Source of the DNA: a virus | Direction: 5' to 3' (one strand) | Virus record (IMG/VR): IMGVR_UViG_3300015189_000123 | Location: 1 to 31,821 of that record | Length of the DNA stretch: 31,821 nt | Part shown: in pieces, positions 1,922-5,922 of the stretch | Layout of the letters: every line of letters begins with the position of its first letter | How positions within the stretch are numbered: position 1 is the stretch's first letter | The notes under the pieces: model-generated | What the model saw: the letters and a program-made list of their open reading frames with translations, nothing else | Database searches by the model: none | What the model was told of the DNA's origin: nothing | Program-made: the position numbers and the translations under genes

Positions 1922-2277
1922 CGGAACGCCCCAGAGGGGCCCTTGCCATGCCTGGCCATGCCGTGCCTGGCCATGCCGGGCCAGGCCCCGCCTGGCCGCG
2001 CCCCGCCTGGCCGGGAACCGCCATGTTGCGCCGAGCGGTGACGCGCCCGACCAAACTTTAAAGTCTCATCCCCCAAGTGCCTCAGAGAGGCCCATGCCGC
2101 GCCGAGCCGGGCCCAGCCTAGCCGCGCCGAGCCTCGCCATGACCGGCCGAGCCCAACCTTGCTGAGTTTGGAAAGTCTATCCCCCGATGCCCCAGAGGAG
2201 CCCCTGCCCAGCCGAGCCGCGCCACACCCTGCGACGCCGTGCCCCGCCTTGGCGCGCCACGCCACGGAGGAGATCAT
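1918..2277 (-). CDS. Doubtful ORF spanning the GGCNN arrays (119 aa)
   Basis: This frame is open across all three repeat copies. Its ATG overlaps the SbcC stop (ATGA at 2274-2277) and its TGA overlaps the ATG of 1472-1921 (1918-1921), exactly as real genes do here. The product would be Gly/Ala/Arg-rich with pentapeptide periodicity such as MARHGMARHGKG. Against it: GGCNN repeats almost never create stop codons in any frame, and the three hairpin boxes fall in different reading frames (spacings of 151 and 110 bases, neither divisible by three), so conservation is at the nucleotide level. I treat it as possibly translated but not as an established protein. Confidence 0.3.
   Translation of the reverse strand: MISSVAWRAKAGHGVAGCGAARLGRGSSGASGDRLSKLSKVGLGRSWRGSARLGWARLGAAWASLRHLGDETLKFGRARHRSAQHGGSRPGGARPGGAWPGMARHGMARHGKGPSGAFR
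1928..2034 (-). repeat. Repeat copy A: hairpin plus GGCNN pentamer array
   Basis: On the plus strand the array reads GCCNN with a strict 5-bp step from 1945 to 2034: 18 units, of which 16 keep GCC. On the leftward transcript this is GGCNN. It is followed by a 13-base hairpin at 1928-1940, stem GCCCC/GGGGC with loop TCT, six bases before the ATG of 1472-1921. Confidence 0.8.
2079..2155 (-). repeat. Repeat copy B: hairpin plus GGCNN pentamer array
   Basis: Twelve GCCNN units at 2096-2155 (11 keep GCC) precede, in the leftward sense, a hairpin at 2079-2091 with stem GCCTC/GAGGC and loop TCT. Compared with copy A, both sides of one base pair have changed together, so pairing is preserved. The hairpin is followed by GGGGGATGAGACTTT, an element also found in near-identical form after copy C. 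Confidence 0.8.
2189..2265 (-). repeat. Repeat copy C: hairpin plus GGCNN pentamer array
   Basis: Twelve GCCNN units at 2206-2265 (9 keep GCC) lie directly after the SbcC stop in the leftward sense. They are followed by a hairpin at 2189-2201, stem GCTCC/GGGGC (one T-G wobble) with loop TCT, then GGGGGATAGACTTT. Arrays B and C are 110 bases apart and in the same 5-bp phase. Confidence 0.75.
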
Positions 2278-4727
2278 GCGGCCACCAAAGTAACGGTGCC
2301 GTTCGAAACGAGGAGCTTCGCGTCCGCGAGGTCGACCACCTCAGGCGAATGCGAGACGAACAGCACGTGGCTGGCGCCGAGGATGTCAGCGGCTCGGCGG
2401 AGCATGGCCATGTACGCCCGCGCGTTGGTGGGGTCGAGCGCTGCGCCACTTTCGTCACGGATCAGCGTGCAACCTTCCACGCCGGTACGCCGGCAGGCCA
2501 GCATCGATAAGGCAAGCGAGATCGCCTCTCCAACCAGCACGCGCTCGCCTCCGGAGAGGGTCTCGGCGTTGGCGTCGCGCCCCCGCTCGGTGTCGATCAC
2601 CCGCACCTCGCAGCCTTCGATCATGCGCTTGCCGTCCGAGCTCGCGCGGGTGGTCTCGATGCTGACCGTCCAGCGTGACCCCACGCAGGTGCGCAGCAGG
2701 TCGTTGATGAGCTCGGTGAGCTCGGGGCCGGCCGCGTCGATCTCGAGGGCTTGGATGCCGTCCCTACCCAGCGAGTCGGCGAGCAGCGTCCAGTCGGCGA
2801 GGTCAGCTTCCATGGCCCGCTGTTGCCCCATGAGGGTGGCAAGGCGCTTCTCGCTCAACCTGGCCGAAGCGAGGTGAGCCTCACGCACGGCGACAGCGGA
2901 GTGGGCGTTCCTGGCGGTCACGGAGGCCGCGTCGCGTCGACGGCGGTGCACGGCCACCAGGTCGGAGGGGTCGGCGACCGGTGCGCCGATGGCGTCCATC
3001 AGCACGGCCACCTCTTCGCTCAACGCCTCGACGCGCTTCCAGGCTGCATCGCGCTGCGGGGTGAGCTCGGCCAGGCGCGCCTGCGCGCTGGCGAGCGGGG
3101 CGGCCTTGGCGAGCAGCGGGGCCAGGGTGGTGCGTTCATCGAGGAGGTCGAGCAAGGCGGCGGACACGACGTTCTTCTCGCCCTCAAGTTCGCGTTGCCG
3201 GGTCTCCAGAGAGCTTCGCTCGCGACCGAGGTCTTCCAGCTCGCGGCCCAGGCGGTCGCTCTCCTCGGTCTCTTGCGCGAGGGCGAGCTCGGCGCGCGAC
3301 AGTTCTTCAGCTCGCGCGGCGATCGCTTCCTGGTCGCGCAGGCGCTCCCTGTTCAGCCGGAGGGCTCCGCCGATGTTAGGCAGCGCCTTGCGGAGGTCAG
3401 CGAGTTCCTCGGGGACACTGGTCGCCCGGGCTACCAACTCGTCGTCCCGCGCTACGGCGTCGCAAGCGACATCGCTCGCATCGCCATTGTCGCCGACGCC
3501 GTTGGCGATGCGCTCCAGCGATGAGCGGAGGTGCCCGACCCGCGCGCTCGTGGCACCGGTCTGCTCCGAGTGCAGCCAATCAATGCGCTTGCGGACGCCG
3601 GTCTCCTCTTCCTCAAGCGAGGCGATGGCCGCGCGCAGGGTTTGCGAAGTGGCCTGCGCGGCGTCGACCGCAGGCTTCATTGCGAGCAGCTCGGCGGCTT
3701 TGGCGCCAGCGACGATCGCTCGCTTGCGTTGCGCGTGCAACGAGTCGAGACGCGCGCGCCACGCGTTGAGCTTGTAGGAAACCGACGAGAGGTCTGACCC
3801 CGTCTTTCGCTCCTCGTCACGAAGCGCGTCGATCTCGGTGCCCAGTGCGGGAGACCGCGCCACCGCCGCGCGAATCGCGGCGGCTTCCTCCAAGACCTTG
3901 GCGTTGTTGCCAACGCGGGCCTCGAACTCGAGGAACCTCGATCGCTCGAGGCCGAGCTGGGCCTTGAGCAAGGCGAGGCGCTTGACGTTGTTCATGGCGG
4001 CCTCGACTTCGGGCAGCAGCTTCGCCGCTTCCGTCTCGGCCTCGTCGAGCGCCGCCTGCGCCACGGCGAGCTCACGGTCGGTCGCTTCAGCGGCTGCGGT
4101 GGCTTCGGCGAGCCCGCGCTCCGCGGCTTCCACCGTCGGGCCGTTGGACCGCTCGTCGGCGATGCGCGCGGCCAGCGCTTGCAGCTCCGCCTTCGCGGCC
4201 CGGGCGCGCTCCCGCGCAAGCTCAGCTTGCTTCTCGAGATGCTCGATACCGAGTACGCGAAGGAGCACCGCTTTTCTGTCGCCGGCCTTGAGCTCAAGAA
4301 AACCGCCCGAGCCCTGCGCGGCGAAGACGCTGGAGTAGAAGACCTCGGGCGAGGGGAGGTGCGTCGCGCCCCACGCGTCGAACTCCCGGAGCTTGGCCGA
4401 CGTGAGCACCGCGGCGCCCGCGCCATCGGTCACCGACGACTCGCCCTTGCCCGACACGGCGTCGACCAGGTGGCGGATGGTGTACGTCGCGCCGTTCACC
4501 ACCGTCGCTTCGACGAACGCGTTACGCTCCGTCGCCAGTTCCGCGAGCGAGCCTCGCGTGGCAGTCACACGGTGCAGGATGCTGCCGAGCAGCTCGACGA
4601 AGGTCGACTTGCCCGCACCGTTGTCGCCGGTCACCGCGACCAGCCGCCCCTCGATGGCCGACAGGTCGACGTCGACGCGGTTGTGGAAGGGCCCCAGTCC
4701 TTGCAGCGAGATTCGGTCAAACCGCAT
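2274..4727 (-). CDS. sbcC: SbcC/Rad50-like ATPase subunit of recombination nuclease
   Basis: This is the ATPase arm of an SbcCD/Mre11-Rad50-type complex, which processes DNA ends in phage recombination and replication (compare T4 gp46). Walker A GDNGAGKST is at residues 34-42, the ABC signature LSGGER at 724-729, Walker B with the acidic pair DE at 758-759, and the H-loop histidine near 793. Between the ATPase halves are two long charged coiled-coil arms (about 170-640). At 817 aa it is shorter than E. coli SbcC, and the apex shows no CXXC zinc hook; a lone cysteine is near the middle. The start overlaps the stop of SbcD by 11 bases with GGAG upstream, so the subunits are coupled. Assignment is firm. 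Confidence 0.93.
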   Translation of the reverse strand: MRFDRISLQGLGPFHNRVDVDLSAIEGRLVAVTGDNGAGKSTFVELLGSILHRVTATRGSLAELATERNAFVEATVVNGATYTIRHLVDAVSGKGESSVTDGAGAAVLTSAKLREFDAWGATHLPSPEVFYSSVFAAQGSGGFLELKAGDRKAVLLRVLGIEHLEKQAELARERARAAKAELQALAARIADERSNGPTVEAAERGLAEATAAAEATDRELAVAQAALDEAETEAAKLLPEVEAAMNNVKRLALLKAQLGLERSRFLEFEARVGNNAKVLEEAAAIRAAVARSPALGTEIDALRDEERKTGSDLSSVSYKLNAWRARLDSLHAQRKRAIVAGAKAAELLAMKPAVDAAQATSQTLRAAIASLEEEETGVRKRIDWLHSEQTGATSARVGHLRSSLERIANGVGDNGDASDVACDAVARDDELVARATSVPEELADLRKALPNIGGALRLNRERLRDQEAIAARAEELSRAELALAQETEESDRLGRELEDLGRERSSLETRQRELEGEKNVVSAALLDLLDERTTLAPLLAKAAPLASAQARLAELTPQRDAAWKRVEALSEEVAVLMDAIGAPVADPSDLVAVHRRRRDAASVTARNAHSAVAVREAHLASARLSEKRLATLMGQQRAMEADLADWTLLADSLGRDGIQALEIDAAGPELTELINDLLRTCVGSRWTVSIETTRASSDGKRMIEGCEVRVIDTERGRDANAETLSGGERVLVGEAISLALSMLACRRTGVEGCTLIRDESGAALDPTNARAYMAMLRRAADILGASHVLFVSHSPEVVDLADAKLLVSNGTVTLVAA

Positions 4728-5922
4728 GGGTGATCTCCAACTCGTTGAGCTTCGTGAAGATGCGTCCGGCGCGGTCGGGGTCGACTTTGATGCCGCGCGC
4801 TTCCCAGCACAGGATGAGCTTGTGGTTCAGCGTCACCGCGGTGGTGATCTCCGGGGTGCGCGCGCGCGTGGTGGCAATGACCTGCTCTTCGAGCTTCACC
4901 GATATGGCGCCTTTCCGGACGAGACTTTCGCGTAGCGTCGTCGCCACGGCCTTCGCCTCGTCGCGGCGGTCGGAGGGGACCGTGTAGCGGCATCGCACCT
5001 CAGCTCCGGCGATCGGCGCGGAGCGAAACGACATCATCCATCGGCCGTCGTCCGCCGAGTACTCGTACACGGCGTCGATGAGCACCATCGGCGTCGCCGG
5101 TGCAACGACGCGTTGCCATTCGAGGCACTGGCCGAGTTGTTGACCGTCCACGCTTCTGTCGATGGCTTCGCTCAGCTTCGAGACGAACTCCGCGACGACG
5201 TACCCCTTGTCCTCGGTCTCACCGAACGCGGTTCGGCGTGGGCTTCCCGGGTACACGACAGGCTCGCCACCCTCGGAGCTCGTATACCAATCCTGCGGCA
5301 GGTGAATGTGCCCGAGCGCGTTGAAGTCCGCCCGAGCAAGCGCGATATCCTCGATGCCCAGCTCCATGTCGCACCCCACGAGCGGCTGTCCCGTCGACGT
5401 CTTCGAGCCGCTCACCATCGCGTGAGCCAGCAGAATGCGCGGGCCGTCGTGCTTCGCGAGCTGATCGCCCATCCCCCGCAACACGTTGCGCATGCACTCG
5501 GTGGCGAGCTGCTCGCTGCCCACCATGCCGGCCTCGCGCGCAGAGGCAAGGAGCGCCGCCTTGCGCGGCCACGCCAGACACGCGACGGCGACCCCGGCCA
5601 CGACGTGCACGCCGGCGGCTTCCTCGACGATGACCGGATGTTTCGTCCGGAGCTTCGCGAAGATCGCCAGATCGCCCACGACATCGTGGTTGCCGCGAAC
5701 GATGACGACGGGCGCGATCTCGGCGCACCAGCGCAGCCAAGCCGCGACCGCTGCGCGCTCGGTGGGGGTGCTCTTCGCGTCGAACACGTCGCCCGCGTGC
5801 AGGATGAGATCGACGCCGCGCGTCCGGATGTCGTCCGCGATCCAGTCGTGGAGCCGGAGGCACTCGGCGAAGCGCGAGCTCTCGGAGAAGTGGCTGTCGG
5901 CGATGATGGCGACGCGCTTCAT
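4717..5922 (-). CDS. sbcD: SbcD/Mre11-like nuclease subunit
   Basis: A calcineurin-fold phosphoesterase that pairs with SbcC to cut DNA ends and hairpins (compare T4 gp47). The metal-binding motifs are present in order: D9-x-H11 (ADSHF), D45 (GDVFD), GNHD at 77-80, H167 (LLAHAM) and GHIH at 204-207. The C-terminal part (about 230-401) would be the capping and SbcC-contact region. Length 401 is normal for SbcD. It starts three bases after the upstream stop without an obvious Shine-Dalgarno sequence, so it probably relies on re-initiation. The gene order nuclease then ATPase is the usual one. Confidence 0.93.
   Translation of the reverse strand: MKRVAIIADSHFSESSRFAECLRLHDWIADDIRTRGVDLILHAGDVFDAKSTPTERAAVAAWLRWCAEIAPVVIVRGNHDVVGDLAIFAKLRTKHPVIVEEAAGVHVVAGVAVACLAWPRKAALLASAREAGMVGSEQLATECMRNVLRGMGDQLAKHDGPRILLAHAMVSGSKTSTGQPLVGCDMELGIEDIALARADFNALGHIHLPQDWYTSSEGGEPVVYPGSPRRTAFGETEDKGYVVAEFVSKLSEAIDRSVDGQQLGQCLEWQRVVAPATPMVLIDAVYEYSADDGRWMMSFRSAPIAGAEVRCRYTVPSDRRDEAKAVATTLRESLVRKGAISVKLEEQVIATTRARTPEITTAVTLNHKLILCWEARGIKVDPDRAGRIFTKLNELEITHAV

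Follow-up and report, generated by a model that had tools for sequence, protein, structure and literature searches.

Organisation of the locus

The DNA considered here, termed the window, is a stretch of 31,821 nucleotides (positions 1 to 31,821 of the IMG/VR virus record IMGVR_UViG_3300015189_000123), and the viral record also encodes a terminase, a Mu-like portal, a head protease and DnaB. Within the window, an array of five-base units on the minus strand is followed by two genes on the same strand. An SbcC/SbcD-like pair (phrog_77 and phrog_100, 2274-5922, minus strand) lies directly upstream of these genes in a leftward operon. The features are given below in the direction of transcription, with the vrRNAs, the guide RNAs of the VIPR system discussed later, to be read as putative.

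2274-4727, minus: SbcC-like gene, the upstream flank of the array
1918-2277, minus: 119-codon open frame spanning the array, judged spurious
2204-2263, minus: vrRNA A guide part, 12 GGYNN units; NN series GT GC AA GG AC GT AG GT GC TC TG AG
2164-2203, minus: vrRNA A 3' tail; hairpin GCTCC/TCT/GGGGC (2189-2201), then GGGGGATAGACTTT
2094-2158, minus: vrRNA B guide part, 13 GGYNN units; NN series TG TC CG AT GA TC GC TA TG CC TC GC AT
2053-2093, minus: vrRNA B 3' tail; hairpin GCCTC/TCT/GAGGC (2079-2091), then GGGGGATGAGACTTT
1943-2032, minus: vrRNA C guide part, 18 GGYNN units; NN series GC AT GG CC CA GG GC CA GG CT CC AT CA AC AT CA AT AA
1922-1942, minus: vrRNA C 3' tail; hairpin GCCCC/TCT/GGGGC (1928-1940), reaching the vap start codon
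1472-1921, minus: vap1-like accessory gene (P0003, 149 aa), found with a profile of vipr-neighbour genes
879-1475, minus: vipr (P0004, 198 aa), phrog_4652, with a PDB 36pp match and an AlphaFold model

The five-base units

The minus strand of 1922-2263 consists of three blocks of the unit GGYNN, amounting to 43 units, of which 36 carry an exact GGC and 38 GGY. The original prediction, made from the same DNA, had recognised the three blocks and the 36 exact copies, and its total of 42 units becomes 43 on recounting. The unit combines a conserved part with a hypervariable one, the entropy being 0.48, 0.59 and 0.27 bits at the G, G and C positions and a near-maximal 1.96 of 2 bits at each N. Six consecutive GGCNN units with at most one mismatch occur 19 times in the window, every time within the array, against 0.01 expected from shuffled sequence. 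The phase of the array differs between blocks, in keeping with the earlier remark that the copies do not share a reading frame.

Block C contains internal near-repeats, for instance GGCCAGGCGGGGC twice, and its guide possibly extends to 2052 by way of four further degenerate units at the 5' end, giving about 22 in total. vrRNAs A and B would each be approximately 100-110 nt in length including their 40-base tails. At the borders of the array, ATGATCTCCTCCGTGG (2277-2262, minus strand, upstream) and ATGAGCTCCGACGTGG (1921-1906, minus strand, downstream) share 13 of their 16 bases, which would fit insertion of the array together with a duplicated start region.

The tail hairpins

Each block is joined to a 13-base hairpin, as had been proposed, and the three hairpins (2201-2189, 2091-2079 and 1940-1928) are held in a fixed register, each beginning two bases past the last unit. 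The pattern GCNNCTCTGNNGC matches these three sites only within the window. Three or more matches of this type are found somewhere in 31.8 kb in 11 of 100 shuffles, and so the hairpin motif alone is not significant; the register of the hairpins is. The sequence GGGGGAT(G)AGACTTT, earlier seen trailing two of the copies, is present as AAAGTCT(C)ATCCCCC at 2172-2185 and 2060-2074.

Of the compensatory changes first claimed for the stems, one pair is indeed altered on both sides (C-G to T-A), and the window holds no second such pair. The stem of vrRNA A (GCTCC/GGGGC) has a one-sided T.G wobble, which pairs only in the minus-strand RNA. Compared with shuffled sequence the window hairpins display no unusual stability (z +1.0, -0.9 and +0.6). 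The tails of the SUSP1 clade contain a pseudoknot; in the window, A and B alone offer a candidate, in which the UCU loop could form three pairs with an AGA some 12 nt further on. Rfam gave no match in the array region, nor in 15 related loci.

The proteins encoded beside the array

The gene at 879-1475 belongs to phrog_4652, which is annotated as "unknown". A search of solved structures with P0004 returned a single relative, the SUSP1 Vipr protein of PDB 36pp, with E = 1.1e-31 (phmmer) and, when a P0004 profile was used, E = 7.4e-48; it is this match that identifies the system as VIPR, a literature search for GGCNN having found nothing. P0004 is 36-44% identical to the Viprs of cultured phages over about 90% of its length. 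Its AlphaFold model, derived from a 67-sequence alignment, has a pLDDT of 96.8, and the best PDB folds for the model are the Csm3/Cas7 RAMP subunits, with Csm3 first. On the basis of homology and modelled fold, the product is a RAMP-fold Vipr, a protein predicted to bind guide RNA.

The intervening gene was compared with a vap profile built from vipr-adjacent genes of five cultured phages and of viral contigs, with the window left out. This profile ranks 1472-1921 first of the 322 ORFs of the window (E = 9e-6 to 1e-8), and its other 25 matches in vipr loci are all adjacent to vipr and on the same strand. Searches for close relatives of P0003 and P0004 found none.

Relationship to the VIPR system

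VIPR is a recently described virus-encoded relative of CRISPR in which a small protein is steered to the DNA of competing viruses (PMC13142463). It consists of Vipr, a small RAMP homologue encoded by the phage and built on a single RRM-like core, together with a vap gene and the vrRNAs (PMC13142463, bioRxiv 2026.04.26.720920), each vrRNA being made of 9-16 YNNGG repeats followed by an invariable structured 3' tail. Double-stranded DNA is read through pairing of the NN dinucleotides, one base being skipped in each unit, and reprogramming the NN changes the DNA site that is repressed. In nature the complex is aimed at competing phages, satellites and prophages, and it represses transcription (PMC13142463).

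The window brings together a RAMP Vipr, GGY/NN units with hypervariable NN, a structured 3' tail, a vap gene and a viral origin. We are therefore nearly certain that 1922-2263 on the minus strand is a VIPR vrRNA array, and the locus is a not previously described member, in an uncultivated phage, of this recently described system. The first reading of the element as a structured RNA or DNA rather than a simple repeat is borne out by the published vrRNA architecture of repeats plus structured tail.

The closest point of comparison is the VIPR of Escherichia phage SUSP1 and of a P. fulva prophage, described as type II (PMC13142463), a type recognised by the place of its Vipr in the tree together with vap1. 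This system shares with the window a RAMP-fold Vipr, a vap1-like neighbour, GGY/NN vrRNAs with a structured 3' tail, a phage location and several vrRNAs per locus. The two differ in gene order, since SUSP1-like phages have vipr and then vap1, whereas in the window the order is array, vap and vipr, with all three vrRNAs upstream of both genes. They differ also in the tail sequence and in the third tail of the window, which runs into the vap start codon. vrRNAs A (12 units) and B (13) fall within the published 9-16 units, whereas vrRNA C, with 18-22, lies above it.

Similar GGYNN arrays stand beside vipr in Gordonia phage MakoManhole, Pseudomonas phages Medea1 and LESphi2, Mycobacterium phage LittleE and the Felixounavirus wV8; in these five loci vipr is annotated as a hypothetical protein, and several have the hairpin at the start of the tail, as in the window, but the order and number of vrRNAs, the tail sequence and the hosts differ. 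With the Csm3/Cas7 effectors of class 1 CRISPR-Cas the likeness lies in the RAMP fold and in a protein that coats guide RNA at a fixed period. VIPR, in contrast, uses a five-base unit with a two-base readout rather than a contiguous spacer, and has no cas genes. The repeat/spacer array with cas genes that defines class 1 is absent from the locus: a tandem-repeat scan of the window found no CRISPR repeats, and the neighbours examined are not cas genes.

Linkage of arrays to vipr in other viruses

How general is the association between array and protein? A pattern of eight GGCNN units (24 fixed bases), scanned over viral contigs, matched at least 120 contigs, many of those listed carrying several arrays with punctuation between them. 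A P0004 profile detected homologues in 85 of the 120 listed array contigs, most of them directly adjacent to the array or one gene away, and in 83 of these 85 the vipr homologue and the array share a strand, the sole two exceptions being L067 and L121. Control loci fetched by unrelated patterns contained neither array nor Vipr homologue (0 of 69; 599 kb). The reverse check gave the same association, GGYNN arrays adjoining vipr in all five cultured phages examined (MakoManhole, Medea1, wV8, LESphi2 and LittleE). The same DNA pattern also retrieved two arrays from bacterial genomes (L158, L160), and the gene that comes after each has a beginning similar to that of P0004. The similar GGC-rich phage arrays mentioned in the original prediction are thus widespread in viral contigs and linked to one RAMP-fold protein.

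In the remaining 35 of the 120 listed contigs (for instance L033, L099, L086 and L064) no Vipr homologue was detected in the fetched DNA. Some of these arrays sit at contig ends, which do not explain all of them; the contigs could be truncated, the Vipr could be of a distant type, or the guide arrays could be orphans.

The arrays vary in how they are bordered. In six loci (L051, L139, L184 from MakoManhole, L188 from LittleE, L036 and L125) tRNA-like 3' halves border or separate the vrRNA arrays, the T-arm motif GGTTCGANTCC lying within 140 nt of an array in 10 of its 27 occurrences in these loci, and in L125 ARAGORN calls a tRNA-Pro that overlaps the array. These tRNA-like borders suggest that some vrRNA arrays may be cut by tRNA-processing enzymes; in its main text the preprint PMC13142463 names hammerheads and staggered arrays, and not tRNA-like borders. 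In five other loci (L040, L063, L096, L130 and L151) the guides are separated by fixed punctuation so short (GTTCA, ACCGCA, ATCGCA, AGGC) that it leaves no room for a hairpin tail, and these arrays may equal the staggered ones of that preprint. More than 100 GGC units are present in each of the single loci L039, L104, L066 and L147, with L039 and L104 about 80% identical, relatives that could show guide turnover.

The tail hairpin in other loci

A hairpin beginning two bases past the last unit is found three times in the window, three times in LESphi2, and in LittleE, wV8, L034, L043 and L072. Among 46 tails that start with GGG, 37% carry a stem of five or more pairs close to that site, compared with 13% in shuffles, the highest rate in 200 shuffles being 28%. 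Over all 401 tails the excess is absent (15% against 14% in shuffles), and the hairpin tail is therefore a feature of a subset of VIPR loci. In 13 tails aligned by hand, picked for having such a stem, the paired bases co-vary, pair 3 being CG, TA, AT or TG and pair 4 CG, GC, TA, AT or TG. Since these pairs change together, the suspicion that pairing is kept by compensation holds across the hairpin-bearing subset as the sequence changes. A strict hairpin-plus-array pattern gave chance matches only in viral contigs and GTDB genomes, and the same collections held no copy of the exact window tail outside the window.

Alternative explanations

The frame of 119 codons across the array (1918-2277), which the original prediction did not mention, raises the question of whether the DNA is simply a protein gene in which the repeats encode a low-complexity basic protein. 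It stays open between the SbcC-like stop codon and the start codon of the gene that follows, and it overlaps each of these neighbours through an ATGA. A five-base period is, however, not a codon period, the three blocks lie in different frames, the NN positions approach maximal entropy, and the arrays of other phages are intergenic. Pfam and PHROG searches with the frame matched nothing; a made-up ARHG repeat peptide likewise had no match in phages, possibly through the low-complexity filter. As 8% of shuffles that keep the GGC are also free of stops, the frame is probably a spurious accident of GGC richness, and translation of the array is very improbable.

Origin as a selfish or slippage-made pentanucleotide repeat, of the REP-like or minisatellite kind and with no guide function, would account for the near-repeats of block C, in which GGCCAGGCGGGGC appears twice. 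Yet slippage would copy the NN positions too, and these are near-random while GGC is kept; pure simple repeats of a GGCNN-type unit do exist in bacteria (G218, G230) and look quite different. Together with the strong strand-specific linkage to one RAMP gene, the very observation that counts against such an origin, the near-random NN exclude a simple repeat, to which we attach a negligible probability.

A third role, that of a regulatory leader or protein-binding RNA controlling vap and vipr, draws on the position of the window array directly upstream of these genes on the same strand, and on the sites of TRAP, triplets with a similar spacing by two bases. In most loci, however, the array is downstream of vipr, which makes a purely regulatory leader unlikely, and hypervariable NN would be unexpected in an RNA that merely binds protein. 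With such RNAs also demonstrated to serve as guides in the homologous system (PMC13142463), this role is scarcely credible. Readings of the TRAP-like, G-quadruplex and RecT-like kinds were set aside when Vipr had been identified.

Proposed mechanism and the search for targets

With the array read as VIPR guides, its mode of action can be modelled on the preprint (PMC13142463), from which expression, processing, binding, repression and the one-base skip are taken. The minus strand of 1922-2263 would encode three vrRNAs, each a GGYNN run followed by a 3' tail that opens with a small hairpin. They would be transcribed leftwards from a position upstream of the vap1-like gene and vipr, whose strand they share, and by analogy with SUSP1 the RNA would be processed to vrRNAs of about 100 nt. 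Small Cas7-like RAMP subunits of Vipr would then coat the repeat tract, with, we infer, one subunit per GGY, and the tail would cap the particle. The exposed NN would pair with double-stranded DNA as xNNxNN..., skipping one base each time, and binding would repress a gene belonging to a rival phage, satellite or prophage. It is conceivable, if rather unlikely, that the 18-22 units of vrRNA C constitute a pair of overlapping guides, or else a particle of unusual length, with the minimal tail of vrRNA C doubling as the vap translation-start region and coupling guide processing with vap expression.

Decoded by the one-base-skip rule, the guides read GTnGCnAAnGGnACnGTnAGnGTnGCnTCnTGnAG (A), TGnTCnCGnATnGAnTCnGCnTAnTGnCCnTCnGCnAT (B) and GCnATnGGnCCnCAnGGnGCnCAnGGnCTnCCnATnCAnACnATnCAnATnAA (C). 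Exact sub-patterns of 8 to 9 units from the three vrRNAs found no DNA targets beyond chance in viral contigs, and none within the window itself. This result carries little weight, because scans of the collections depend on exact matches. Units 1-8 of vrRNA B match a sequence, probably enterobacterial pncB, that codes for YADSIREQ, and the skipped base falls on the wobble position. The match was rejected as a chance one: at most one of the five units that remain fits, and pncB belongs to host metabolism. For units 11-18 of vrRNA C the 22 matches are close to chance expectation and none extends.

Significance

The locus demonstrates that raw DNA by itself suffices to find VIPR guide arrays, and the link between array and Vipr holds in many uncultivated phage contigs that were gathered without knowledge of the protein. 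The paired tail hairpin gains independent comparative evidence, and re-annotation is due for phrog_4652 and for the spurious "hypothetical proteins" drawn over such arrays. To a system described only in 2026, and one that bears on the origin of CRISPR, the locus contributes a long guide and a gene order that differs.
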